From positions 1-23,121 of the IMG/VR virus record IMGVR_UViG_3300037107_000024: a stretch of DNA of 23,121 bases, one strand, 5' to 3'. Source of the DNA: a virus. Positions 14,148-21,973 of this stretch are shown here, one piece after another. The stretch's first letter is position 1; each line of letters opens with the position of its first letter. The notes under the pieces are model-generated. The model was not told the origin of the DNA. It saw nothing but the letters and a program-made list of their open reading frames with translations, and ran no database searches. The position numbers were made by a program, and so were the translations under genes.

Positions 14148-14357
14148 ATGTCGGAACAATTAATCAAGATTAAAGAATATACTATTATGAAATCAGGCGG
14201 AGCATCAAAAGTAATTGCACTTCCTAAAATTTGGATGAACGACAACAATGTGGATTGTAAATCAAGACTCGATATGTACCGTGCAAATATTGACGGCAAG
14301 GACGTTTTAGTTATTGCAAAACAAACCGAAGAAAAGAAGAACAAGAAATCTAAATAA
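14148..14357 (+). CDS. AbrB/SpoVT-like (MazE-fold) DNA-binding regulator
   Basis: The 69-residue protein has GGASKVIALPKIWMNDNNVD (residues 17-36) and then LDMYRANIDGKDVLVIA. This is the swapped-hairpin AbrB pattern: a basic strand, IALPK in place of the usual VTIPK, a short helix, and paired C-terminal strands. The C-terminus is Lys-rich (EEKKNKKSK). It follows the rightward promoter closely and has a strong AAGGAGA site, so it is probably an early regulator of the phage genes or of the divergent promoters. No toxin partner is next to it, so an antitoxin role is less likely. Confidence 0.65.
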   Translation: MSEQLIKIKEYTIMKSGGASKVIALPKIWMNDNNVDCKSRLDMYRANIDGKDVLVIAKQTEEKKNKKSK

Positions 14358-14367
14358 CGGAGAGATT

Positions 14368-15360
14368 ATGAGCGTAAAAGGCTTCAAGGTTTTTAATCCA
14401 GATTTTACCTGTCAAGGTTTTCAATATGCAGAGAATACAAAATTCAAATTCAATGGAGCAATTAAAATCTGTTCATCGGGCTTTCACTTTTGCGAAAAAG
14501 CATCAGACTGTTTTTCTTATTATTCTTTCGATCCCAAAAACATAGTTTGCGAAGTTGAAGGGCTTGGGAAAATCGAAAACGAAGAAAGCGATTCGAAAAA
14601 ATGCACGGATGAAATTTTTATCGGAAGAAAATTAACTTGGGACGAAGTTTTGAAAGCCGCCAATGAAGGATCAAACAATACGGGTCATTCGAATAGCGGT
14701 AACTGGAATAGCGGTAACAGGAATAGCGGTAACAGTAATAGCGGTTACAGGAATAGCGGTGACAGTAATAGCGGTTACAGGAATAGCGGTGACAGTAATA
14801 GCGGTGACAGTAATAGCGGTTACAGGAATAGCGGTTACAGTAATAGCGGTAACAGTAATAGCGGTAACAGTAATAGCGGTGACAGTAATAGCGGTTACTG
14901 GAATAGCGGTAACAATAATAGCGGTAACTGGAATAGCGGTTACAGGAATAGCGGTAACTGGAATAGCGGTGACAGTAATAGCGGTGACAGTAATAGCGGT
15001 TACAGGAATAGCGGCGCGTTCTGCCTCGACAATAACCCCAAATTGTTTTTATTCGACAAACCAACAAATATAAATGTTCGTGATTGGGAAAATACAGAAG
15101 TTATAAAAACTATGAGAAATTTACTCGAAATAAACGAGTGGATTTACAAAAACTCAATGACAAATGAAGAAAAAGAAAAATTTCCGACCTATAAAACCAC
15201 CGGCGGTTATCTTAAAACAAAAACGCTACATGAAGCATGGAAAGATATGTGGAGCAATCTTGAGAAAGAAAAGAAACAACTATTCTTAGACCTTCCGAAT
15301 TTTGATGCGGAAAAATTTAAGATCATAACCGGAGTAGATGTTTCGGAGGATTTGAAATGA
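14368..15360 (+). CDS. Pentapeptide-like repeat protein with N-terminal DUF7666-type domain
   Basis: I start it at 14368 (330 residues), since GGAGAG lies just upstream; the frame extends further back without a ribosome site. Residues 1-95 (GFKVFNPDFTCQGFQY, ICSSGFHFCEKASDCFSYY, CEVEGLGKI) look like the small Cys-rich domain often found ahead of repeats in phage proteins. Residues 107-216 are 22 consecutive five-residue units ending NSG. The C-terminal 110 residues are helical and charged. Regular NSG spacing suggests a right-handed beta-solenoid like Pentapeptide_2 proteins. Function unknown; DNA mimicry is known for some pentapeptide proteins but not shown here. Confidence 0.75.
   Translation: MSVKGFKVFNPDFTCQGFQYAENTKFKFNGAIKICSSGFHFCEKASDCFSYYSFDPKNIVCEVEGLGKIENEESDSKKCTDEIFIGRKLTWDEVLKAANEGSNNTGHSNSGNWNSGNRNSGNSNSGYRNSGDSNSGYRNSGDSNSGDSNSGYRNSGYSNSGNSNSGNSNSGDSNSGYWNSGNNNSGNWNSGYRNSGNWNSGDSNSGDSNSGYRNSGAFCLDNNPKLFLFDKPTNINVRDWENTEVIKTMRNLLEINEWIYKNSMTNEEKEKFPTYKTTGGYLKTKTLHEAWKDMWSNLEKEKKQLFLDLPNFDAEKFKIITGVDVSEDLK
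14686..15015 (+). repeat. 15-base tandem repeat, 22 units, coding for xxNSG
   Basis: Each unit ends AAT AGC GGT, unchanged from unit to unit apart from the last base of the array. The first codon is AAC, TAC or GAC (CAT in unit one) and the second AGT, AGG, TGG or AAT (TCG in unit one). All Asp units carry Ser second. There are no spacers, so it is not a CRISPR. The DNA identity indicates recent expansion. Confidence 0.9.
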
Positions 15361-15455
15361 AAACCCGTGAACTAAATTTACCAGATTGTAAAAGCTGTTG
15401 CGGAAGTGGTGAAGCAATCGAAAAAGCATTAACGAAAGCCGAGGGAGGTAAATAA
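15357..15455 (+). CDS. Micro-protein with CxxCC motif (32 aa)
   Basis: The ATG overlaps the previous stop (ATGA) and the TAA overlaps the next ATG. The 32-residue product is MKTRELNLPDCKSCCGSGEA plus a charged tail. CKSCCGSG is a knuckle-like half zinc site. The next gene's GGAGG site lies inside it, so its translation probably feeds the next gene. Small, but both junctions are exact overlaps. Confidence 0.5.
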   Translation: MKTRELNLPDCKSCCGSGEAIEKALTKAEGGK

Positions 15456-16243
15456 TGAGAATTAATCTTTGGGTTACGAATGAAGGATGGAAATTATTTG
15501 AAATTGATTCAAATGATAATGAAGAATTAATTTCAAGAAAAATTTCAATCGGTGATCGTGCTTCAATCGGTGATGATGCTTCAATCGGTAATGGTGCTTC
15601 AATCTGTAATGGTGCTTCAATCGGTCATCGTGCTTCAATCGGTCATGGTGCTTCAATCGGTCATCGTGCTTCAATCGGTCATCGTGCTTCAATCGGTGAT
15701 CGTGCTTCAATCGGTGATCGTGCTTCAATCGGTGATGATGCTTCAATCGGTCATCGTGCTTCAATCGGTCCTCGTGCTTCAATCGGTGATCGTGCTTCAA
15801 TCGGTGATGGTGCTTCAATCGGTGATCATGCTTCAATCGGTGATCGTGCTTCAATCGGTGATGATGCTTCAATCGGTAATGGTGCTTCAATCGGTCATCG
15901 TGCTTCAATCGGTCATGGTGCTTCAATCGGTCATCGTGCTTCAATCGGTGATCGTGCTTCAATCGGTGATGGTGCTTCAATCGGTGATCATGCTTCAATC
16001 GGTGATGGTGTAAAATTAATAAAATGTATTTACATAATCGGCACGAAACATAGTGTGACTTATTCAGGCAATAGAAGAATATCAATAGGATGCCATACTT
16101 ATACAATCGATGAATGGATTGATTTTTATAATAATGGAAGTGAGTTAGGAAAACAAGAAAATTATACAACTGAACAAATCGAAGAATATTGCGAATATGT
16201 TAAAGCGATAGATGTTTTGACTAAATCAGAGGCAAGCAAATGA
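15455..16243 (+). CDS. Hexapeptide-repeat (left-handed beta-helix) protein
   Basis: The 262-residue protein starts at an ATG with GGGAGG upstream. Residues 30-185 are 26 six-residue units of the form [A/I]SIGxx, the [LIV]Gxxxx pattern of left-handed beta-helices, about nine coils. The C-terminal domain (residues 186-262) has GTKHSVTYSGNRRISIGCHT, then TIDEWIDFYNNG and a helix with EQIEEYCEYVKAI; similar tails are seen in phage hexapeptide proteins. One unit has Cys for Gly (SICNG). The transferase active-site His loops of hexapeptide acyltransferases are missing, so a structural or binding role is more likely. Function unknown. Confidence 0.75.
   Translation: MRINLWVTNEGWKLFEIDSNDNEELISRKISIGDRASIGDDASIGNGASICNGASIGHRASIGHGASIGHRASIGHRASIGDRASIGDRASIGDDASIGHRASIGPRASIGDRASIGDGASIGDHASIGDRASIGDDASIGNGASIGHRASIGHGASIGHRASIGDRASIGDGASIGDHASIGDGVKLIKCIYIIGTKHSVTYSGNRRISIGCHTYTIDEWIDFYNNGSELGKQENYTTEQIEEYCEYVKAIDVLTKSEASK
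15542..16009 (+). repeat. 18-base tandem repeat, 26 units, coding for ASIGxx
   Basis: The invariant core is GCT TCA ATC GGT (first unit ATT TCA ATC GGT; one unit TGT for GGT), followed by two variable codons, mostly GAT, CAT or AAT and then CGT, GGT, GAT or CAT. The unit series DR DD NG HR HG HR DR DG DH occurs intact in units 17-25 and, with insertions, in units 1-16, showing a nested duplication. Confidence 0.9.
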
Positions 16244-20550: not shown

Positions 20551-20575
20551 AAGAGGTTGTGATGAAAGAGATTGA
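20459..20575 (+). CDS. Possible leader micro-ORF (38 aa)
   Basis: The ATG at 20459 has AGGAG 9 bases upstream, inside stem 1 of the leader. It codes for MKIIALDLNVNEILTKEL and then RYKPRSNKGFLFLRGCDERD, ending 14 bases inside the HNH gene. It has plausible composition but no family. It may be a leader peptide whose translation opens the structure, or a chance frame through a structured RNA. Confidence 0.35.
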   Translation: MKIIALDLNVNEILTKELRYKPRSNKGFLFLRGCDERD

Positions 20576-21053
20576 ACTCATCGGTAAACGGGGTGCGGGC
20601 AAAGTCGCTTTAGTTGATGACGACGACTATGAACATCTTAGCCGGTTTAAGTGGTATGCGCTCAAAGGCTGGAACACTTTCTATGCGTTCCGTAACATTA
20701 AGAGGGAAGACGGTAAGTGGAGACTGTTATTTATGCACCGAGAGATTGTGAACACGCCCAAAGGCATTTTGACCGATCATAAAGATCATAATGGACTAAA
20801 TAATCAAAAGCGTAATCTAAGAAATTGTACCAATCAAGAAAACCAATATAACCAAAGAGCAAGGGGATGCAGCTCGAAATATAAAGGCGTTTCTTCGTTG
20901 GGGCGCGGGAAGGGGTGGAGGGCGACAATCAAGAAGGGCGAAACCCTTCATATAGGCAGTTACAGGACAGAGCAAGATGCCGCATTAGCCTATAATAAAA
21001 AAGCCGTAGAATTATTTGGAGAGTTTGCAAACTTAAATATAATCCTACAATAG
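20562..21053 (+). CDS. HNH homing endonuclease with AP2 DNA-binding domain
   Basis: I start it at the ATG at 20562 (163 residues) rather than the GTG before it, since AGAGG fits this start. The HNH_3-type core has LLFMHREIV (His59), ILTDHKDHNGLNN (His73, His76, Asn77) and RNLRNCTNQENQYN (about 84-97). The AP2 domain follows: SKYKGVSSL, GWRATIKK, IGSYRTEQDAALAYN and ELFGEFANLN. Such proteins are free-standing or intron-borne homing nucleases that cut phage DNA to spread. No intron core is visible here. It has its own promoter and leader and interrupts the recombination operon, consistent with insertion. Confidence 0.9.
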   Translation: MKEIELIGKRGAGKVALVDDDDYEHLSRFKWYALKGWNTFYAFRNIKREDGKWRLLFMHREIVNTPKGILTDHKDHNGLNNQKRNLRNCTNQENQYNQRARGCSSKYKGVSSLGRGKGWRATIKKGETLHIGSYRTEQDAALAYNKKAVELFGEFANLNIILQ

Positions 21054-21926: not shown

Positions 21927-21973
21927 TTAGTTCCGGTTCCGGTGACGGTTACGGTTACGGTGACGGTTCATAA
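21914..21973 (+). CDS. Gly-Tyr-Asp-Ser repeat micro-protein (19 aa)
   Basis: An ATG at 21914, inside the previous gene, codes for MEKLISSGSGDGYGYGDGS. From residue 7 every second residue is Gly, always GGT, and the others are Ser, Asp or Tyr (TCC, GAC, TAC). This is a six-base repeat, and it stays in frame to a stop. Similar Ser/Gly/Asp/Tyr peptides are seen in some phage genomes (from memory). The ribosome site is weak, so translation is unproven. Confidence 0.4.
   Translation: MEKLISSGSGDGYGYGDGS

Follow-up and report, generated by a model that had tools for sequence, protein, structure and literature searches.

Signs of selection for diversity at two residues per unit in neighbouring phage beta-solenoid genes

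Why should two neighbouring genes of a phage each encode a long array of almost identical short units which differ at only two adjacent residues? This question is raised by a 23,121-bp IMG/VR virus record (the window, meaning this whole stretch of DNA; its phage genes include a P22-like portal, DnaB, YqaJ, and RecT), in which gene A encodes pentapeptides of the type xxNSG and gene B hexapeptides of the type ASIGxx. The two variable residues of a unit are called x1 and x2. A first-pass annotation of the letters alone had taken the two genes for a paired and rapidly changing binding surface, with neutral repeat slippage as the simple alternative. Comparison with related arrays shows that the diversity at x1 and x2 is maintained by selection on the protein and not by DNA slippage alone. 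The two genes are laid out as follows.

14368-15360, plus strand: gene A, 330 amino acids, with the ATG at 14368 and the stop at 15360
14368..14661, plus strand: DUF7666 N-terminal domain of gene A, about residues 1-98 (Pfam PF24703, AlphaFold2 (AF2), VIA-align)
14685..15014, plus strand: gene A array of 22 xxNSG pentapeptides in 15-bp units (Tandem Repeats Finder, codon table, Pfam)
15015..15360, plus strand: gene A C-terminal domain of the phrog_14105 type (E 2.1e-105) and stop
15455-16243, plus strand: gene B, 262 amino acids, belonging with phrog_5353
15455..15543, plus strand: gene B N-terminal leader ahead of the array (AF2 residues 1-29 with a predicted local distance difference test score (pLDDT) below 50)
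15544..16010, plus strand: gene B array of 26 hexapeptides [A/I]-S-I-G-x-x in 18-bp units (Tandem Repeats Finder, codon table, Pfam, AF2)
16011..16243, plus strand: gene B C-terminal cap (SIGCHxxTIDEW...YTxEQIxEY), shared with relatives

The arrays are as regular as had been described, with nearly constant core codons and two adjacent codons that vary. Tandem Repeats Finder returned a 15-bp unit in 21.6 copies for gene A (14691-15014) and an 18-bp unit in 25.9 copies for gene B (15544-16010). All 22 units of gene A have AAT for asparagine and AGC for serine, and glycine is GGT in 21 and GGC in one, so that of the 66 core codons a single one differs synonymously; the variation is located in the xx codons, with AAC (8), TAC (7), GAC (6), and CAT (1) at x1 and mostly AGT, AGG, or TGG at x2. 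In gene B the serine codon TCA and the isoleucine codon ATC are found in 26 of 26 units, GCT in 25 with one isoleucine codon, and GGT in 25 with one cysteine codon, so that not a single synonymous change occurs in 104 codons; x1 is GAT, CAT, AAT, or CCT and x2 is CGT, GGT, GAT, or CAT. Both arrays belong to catalogued families. That of gene A matches Pfam PF01469 Pentapeptide_2, a family of tandem xNxGx units (E 1.5e-15, 57.2 bits against a curated cut-off of 26.4), and that of gene B matches PF00132 Hexapep, with units of the form [LIV]-[GAED]-X2-[STAV]-X (E 6.6e-31, 105.2 bits against a cut-off of 27).

About 90 related arrays were compared; the NSGxx set has 68 arrays with 1,051 units and the hexapeptide set 29 stretches with 297 units, a few of the latter from the same gene. 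Metagenome assembly and shared ancestry of the arrays limit the comparison, and repeats may be collapsed in the many short-read assemblies among them. For each base of the unit, the nucleotide diversity found within arrays was divided by the total diversity. Copying and drift of units should homogenise all sites of a unit alike, and this was not what was observed. In the 68 NSGxx arrays the ratio was 0.11 at the third base of the asparagine codon, 0.05-0.09 at the bases of the serine codon, 0.07 at the third base of the glycine codon, and 0.22 at x1 base 3, as compared to 0.86 at x1 base 1 and 0.77 at x2 base 1. Leaving aside the window, its closest relative (L003), and the loci L006, L008, and L009, which had been found by their NSG codon pattern, the remaining 63 arrays yielded 0.06-0.14 for the core versus 0.85 (0.81-0.90) for x1 base 1 and 0.78 (0.74-0.83) for x2 base 1. 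The hexapeptide arrays gave the same picture, with 0.00 at the third bases of alanine and isoleucine, 0.04 at that of serine, 0.14 at that of glycine, and 0.11 at x2 base 3, versus 0.91 at x1 base 1 and 0.77 at x2 base 1.

The third base of x2 in the NSGxx arrays allows silent and replacement changes to be compared at one and the same nucleotide, AGG/AGA and TGT/TGC being silent and AGG/AGT and TGG/TGT being replacements. Among within-array unit pairs which share the first two bases of x2, 1,167 differed by a residue-changing and 42 by a silent substitution; by array, 42 lean to replacement and three to silent change. The silent changes at this base are transitions or changes within CGN, and mutation by itself gives no reason for these to be the less frequent class. 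These counts, together with a simulation of neutral turnover in which the x sites needed a 50-100-fold higher mutation rate to give the observed contrast, led to the rejection of a base-specific mutation hotspot. Codon bias was rejected as a cause as well, since in 27 of 61 arrays the third base of asparagine codons differs between core and x1. The alphabet is nearly the same in both types of solenoid, mostly D, N, or Y at x1 and mostly R, W, G, C, or S at x2. That x1 and x2 stay diverse in almost all arrays, with nearly this one alphabet in two unrelated solenoids and in different codon backgrounds, requires selection on the amino acids. A further point against codon bias is that the third base of x1 varies from array to array, although in 50 of the 68 arrays the codons for D, N, and Y have it in common. 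This suggests that an array may start anew from a small number of units, after which diversification leads back to the same alphabet.

The arrays themselves turn over quickly. Unit lengths of both genes are multiples of 3 bp, and length changes therefore stay in frame. Between the window and L003 the bases are identical at 209 of 210 positions in the upstream gene, 281 of 294 in the head of gene A, and 344 of 351 in its C-terminal domain, with 22 versus 12 units in a different order. L006 and L008 have 13 versus 29 units between checked flanks that are identical (300 bp on the 5' side, 330 bp on the 3' side), a difference which may be due to in-frame loss between repeated blocks or to assembly collapse; block duplications are visible in both arrays. 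Two Leptospira loci, L141 and L142, share their flanks as well and differ in hexapeptide number, and NSGxx arrays range from 8 to 34 units. Array length thus turns over while the flanks stay constant, and the frame is kept. Whole in-frame units are gained and lost, and the cores within one array are kept alike by concerted evolution through unequal exchange or slippage.

These gains and losses, and the visible block duplications, are what neutral slippage would produce if units were copied, the NSG or ASIG core were held by purifying selection, and xx drifted freely. On that account, however, silent sites should not be homogenised about 10-fold more than the xx of the same units, one and the same base should not yield the excess of residue-changing pairs given above, and rate differences of 50- to 100-fold should not be required. 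The simple alternative of the first-pass annotation is contradicted by these results and is very unlikely. A targeted hypermutation of the xx codons in the style of diversity-generating retroelements is more doubtful still and has hardly any probability in our view. Many changes do hit NAY and NGN codons at their first base, but the core adenines (AAT AGC) are unchanged, the A at x1 base 2 rarely changes, the substitutions are not adenine-specific, and the outcome at x2 base 3 depends on whether the residue is changed. Neither a template repeat nor a reverse transcriptase was seen in the window, which is a fragment and was not searched systematically for them.

The variable residues are also coupled within the unit. 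In gene A all six aspartate units carry serine and five of seven tyrosine units carry arginine. Permutation within the array gave p = 0.006 for all D going with S and p = 5e-5 for the D-S plus Y-R count, with the reservation that duplicated blocks make units non-independent; for gene B the pairing was not clearly non-random (p = 0.08). The D-S/Y-R pairing is seen in the window and also in L003 but does not extend to the whole family; it is lineage-specific, and in other arrays D is combined with W or C. What was found across the family, in both folds, is a different non-randomness of x1 and x2. The NSG arrays contain 60 DR units where 103 were expected (z -6.6), with an excess of D-W, D-C, N-R, and Y-R; 43 versus 11 arrays agree in the direction of the D/N by W/R association, and most arrays do so in every one of four codon backgrounds. 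In the hexapeptide arrays 23 DR units were observed versus 46 expected (z -5.6) and no ER versus 6.4, N-R and S-R are in excess, and 20 versus 3 arrays hold the direction of the DR depletion. Between x2 of one NSGxx unit and x1 of the next no such avoidance was seen. The sequences thus point to a general rule by which an acidic x1 avoids arginine at x2 within a unit, in which common descent of unit types may play a part and from which gene B of the window, with five DR units of 25 counted, is an exception. Beyond block duplications no order with the period of a solenoid coil was found in the arrays, neither at a lag of 4 for pentapeptides nor at a lag of 3 for hexapeptides. In 25 hexapeptide arrays pairs recur above shuffles at a lag of 4 units (z 4.0) and not at 3, the coil period; block duplication is the probable cause.

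Do the two genes belong together? A search with the C-terminal domain of gene A found it kept in at least 77 viral loci and, among bacterial genomes, in at least 22 loci, most of which belong to Clostridia or other Firmicutes. Many of the gene A relatives have a DUF7666 head and others start straight at the array; the genes around them are of the early type (SSB, ERF, RecT, RusA, DNA methyltransferases, helix-turn-helix proteins). For gene B an exact-codon search detected no further hexapeptide arrays like it, and a degenerate A-[S/T]-I-G pattern yielded 23 viral stretches with hexapeptide arrays. Within the flanks read, none of the 77 listed viral gene A loci has a hexapeptide array, and none of the 23 hexapeptide viral loci has an NSG array. 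L003 has gene A with 12 units and no gene B. It diverges from the window inside a small open reading frame 3' of gene A and rejoins ahead of the next shared gene, and the junction in the window is

15357..15455, plus strand: shortened remnant of the open reading frame MKTRELNLPDCKSCCGSGE..., which is longer in L003, where gene B is missing

A pair of A and B acting as one system was rejected on this evidence. The comparison indicates that the genes are separate modules which are neighbours by chance and not an obligatory pair.

The two domains that flank the NSG array were predicted with more confidence than the array itself. In the AF2 model of gene A the head reaches a pLDDT of about 80-95 and the C-terminal domain about 80-96; gene B is modelled as a regular solenoid (EE----) with a repeat pLDDT of up to 96. 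Foldseek with both models gave nothing at E <= 0.001, an absence which is not evidence of a new fold, and a PDB sequence profile search with gene A returned only a chance fibrinogen match (E 0.29). The head matches Pfam DUF7666 PF24703 at residues 3-96 (E 5.3e-29, 101 bits against a cut-off of 27), and 32 members all share G5, K7, C35, G38, H40, and C48. Most of its VIA-align rows are chains with the ADP-ribosyltransferase fold (Arr, PARP10/13/14, TreTu, MbcT, RES, ParT) at Z 3-7 and a root mean square deviation of 3-5 A, below the trust level of 8; the best Z of 6.9 is to an unassigned Bacillus protein, and Foldseek gave E >= 3 for the head. The depositor's name of the Acinetobacter phage relatives, 'putative ADP-ribosyltransferase', agrees with this lead, and the head may be said to resemble that fold weakly. 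A literature search found no paper on DUF7666.

Heads and caps are combined with repeats in several ways. A gene A relative in L083 (3744-5222) has an additional N-terminal A1S_2505 domain (NF049995, E 3.8e-37) ahead of DUF7666, and its FVFGSNL...GGAAKLA stretch is by our impression presumably like a macrodomain; if a macrodomain does lie there beside an ADP-ribosyltransferase-like domain, this would point to ADP-ribose chemistry. L065 (4368-5315) joins an MCDFFSAI N-terminus to an NSGxx array, and L005 (1673-2125) an MCNFLSAI-type N-terminal domain to GGTVQEV repeats, the L005 protein having no Pfam match. Two DUF7666-type genes lie close together in L086 (1021-1896, 4251-5111) and L117 (4284-5177, 5295-6281), and L101 has a single protein with two DUF7666 domains. 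The gene B type of cap follows hexapeptides in L005, L092, and L093 and is fused to true A(D/N)LSG pentapeptides, not hexapeptides, in L094 (1435-1905) and L095 (3650-4198). On the Leptospira plasmid L142 (1713-2944) a hexapeptide gene adjoins a pentapeptide gene with a similar cap near a PD-(D/E)XK nuclease, and on another, L143 (67-2234), four hexapeptide genes stand in tandem.

What these rods may do was weighed among several readings. We give about even chances to accessory beta-solenoids of the early phage region, with diversifying selection on x1 and x2, unequal exchange of units, and probable binding surfaces. In-frame unit exchange would change array length and order and would be a cheap source of new variants; x1 and x2 would face the solvent; selection would maintain chemical variety on the surface of the rod, most likely because it binds molecules of the host or of competitors at an early stage of infection; and the solenoid might position the DUF7666 head with its ADP-ribosyltransferase-like fold. 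Several points weigh against this. AF2 is without confidence on the NSG array (residues 101-212, pLDDT below 50), and the outward orientation of x1 and x2 is therefore something we infer there; and the gene B model aligns mostly to right-handed helices (VIA-align Z 9-13), although from the sequence one would expect a left-handed helix with three hexapeptides to each triangular coil. The shared ancestry of the arrays and the ability of short-read assembly to collapse repeats count here as well, and selection for heterogeneity itself would leave the same signature as binding. The last is the main rival, and a possible though less probable one: identical stacked residues could aggregate or repel each other, so that polar residues would be kept mixed with charged and aromatic ones for folding and solubility, with no specific target. 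The stable alphabet with free order, the mean net charge per unit near zero, and the complete rearrangement of order between near-identical phages fit such an explanation, but plentiful Trp, Arg, Tyr, and Cys at x2 would be an odd choice for it, the avoidance of R by D within the unit is not obviously explained, and array length varies from 8 to 34 units. The rapidly changing binding surface first proposed thus retains selection on two residues and fast array turnover, while binding is a matter of interpretation and the pairing is unsupported.

Nucleic acid as the partner, either mimicked in the manner of the gyrase inhibitors MfpA and Qnr or read by a TAL-like two-residue code, is very improbable. 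Pentapeptide solenoids of the PF00805 type (MfpA, Qnr) are DNA mimics (PMC8145042) and gene A is a Pentapeptide_2 solenoid, but it has no PF00805 match at E <= 1, its sequence being NSGxx and not [STAV][DN][LF][STR]G. Mimicry was rejected because the arrays are nearly neutral, with a mean net charge per NSGxx unit of -0.08 (0.00 in the window) and a charge of -3 over the 157 residues of the gene B array. The TAL-like linear code fell with the lineage-specific pair rule, the lack of conserved order and of a coil-period signal, and the unit length, as beta-solenoid units of 5 or 6 residues turn successive residues to different faces. It is likewise most improbable that gene B is a hexapeptide-family acyltransferase of the LpxA, LpxD, or NeuD kind acting on host surface sugars, although it has sequence matches to all three, Leptospira plasmid genes carry deposited names of this kind, and NeuO is a prophage precedent (PMC3046976). 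As the scores are far below the curated cut-offs (LpxD 100.1/207, LpxA 79.4/226, NeuD 91.8/160.8 bits), this enzyme identity was rejected; furthermore the matches are limited to the repeat, the coils have no interrupting insertion loop, and relatives keep the cap but switch the solenoid to pentapeptides.

Taken together, the original observation is stronger in one respect, selection in two folds, and weaker in others, namely the pair, the TAL code, and a universal D-S rule. A wider and more speculative proposal, which we regard as rather unlikely in full, is that of evolvable recognition rods, in which unit exchange and two exposed residues with a small alphabet and acidic-Arg avoidance would have arisen in two unrelated solenoids and, with interchangeable heads (ADP-ribosyltransferase-like DUF7666, A1S_2505) and caps, would serve as fast-changing binders against host or rival factors. 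If the surface does bind, natural evolvable binders made from 5- and 6-residue units would be at hand, with many variants already sequenced. The single-base comparison of silent and replacement changes at the same site is in any case a simple route to other repeat proteins under diversifying selection.

Some further features were seen around the two genes. A small open reading frame at 14148-14357, 5' of gene A, is the same in L003 at 209 of 210 bases and has a weak MazE/AbrB-like match below the cut-off. Directly after RecT lies an HNH/AP2-type open reading frame (20559-21053) with weak HNH_3 and AP2 matches; one that looks similar is present in L003 (7758-8342). A short tandem repeat of the hexanucleotide GTTACG occurs in 6.5 copies at 21930-21968. 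Four genes tested with PADLOC gave no match to known defence proteins.

A literature search found no published account of these phage repeat proteins or of the selection signature; related literature consisted of NeuO and of reviews on pentapeptide proteins and gyrase inhibitors, as background only. TAL effectors are built of helical repeats of 33-35 residues with one unit per base. The genes described here resemble them in being modular, with two residues that vary in each unit, and differ in having 5- or 6-residue beta units without conserved order. Pentapeptide_2 is best known from mycobacterial PPE-MPTR proteins. Gene A resembles this family in its N-x-G-x-x tandem units, but its core is N-S-G-x-x with D/N/Y then R/W/C/S/G as xx, and its array, which is fused to DUF7666 on one side and to a phage C-terminal domain on the other, combines homogeneity at silent sites with diversity of residues. 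With PF00805 proteins such as MfpA and Qnr it has in common a beta-solenoid of 5-residue units, and in L094, L095, and L142 genuine A(D/N)LSG repeats occur together with a relative of the gene B cap; gene A itself does not show the A(D/N)LXX consensus, has its one match to PF01469, and lacks acidic character. Gene B is akin to the hexapeptide solenoids (LpxA, LpxD, NeuD, gamma carbonic anhydrase) by its Pfam match and is set apart by a near-perfect DNA repeat, the lack of an interrupting loop, a different cap, and scores below the enzyme cut-offs. NeuO, a hexapeptide-family O-acetyltransferase encoded by a prophage, likewise has a tandem coding repeat of variable copy number, which in NeuO tunes activity (PMC3046976). 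Its RLKTQDS heptads (7-bp unit), however, lie outside the helix and shift the frame, whereas gene B repeats the units of the helix itself and keeps the frame.
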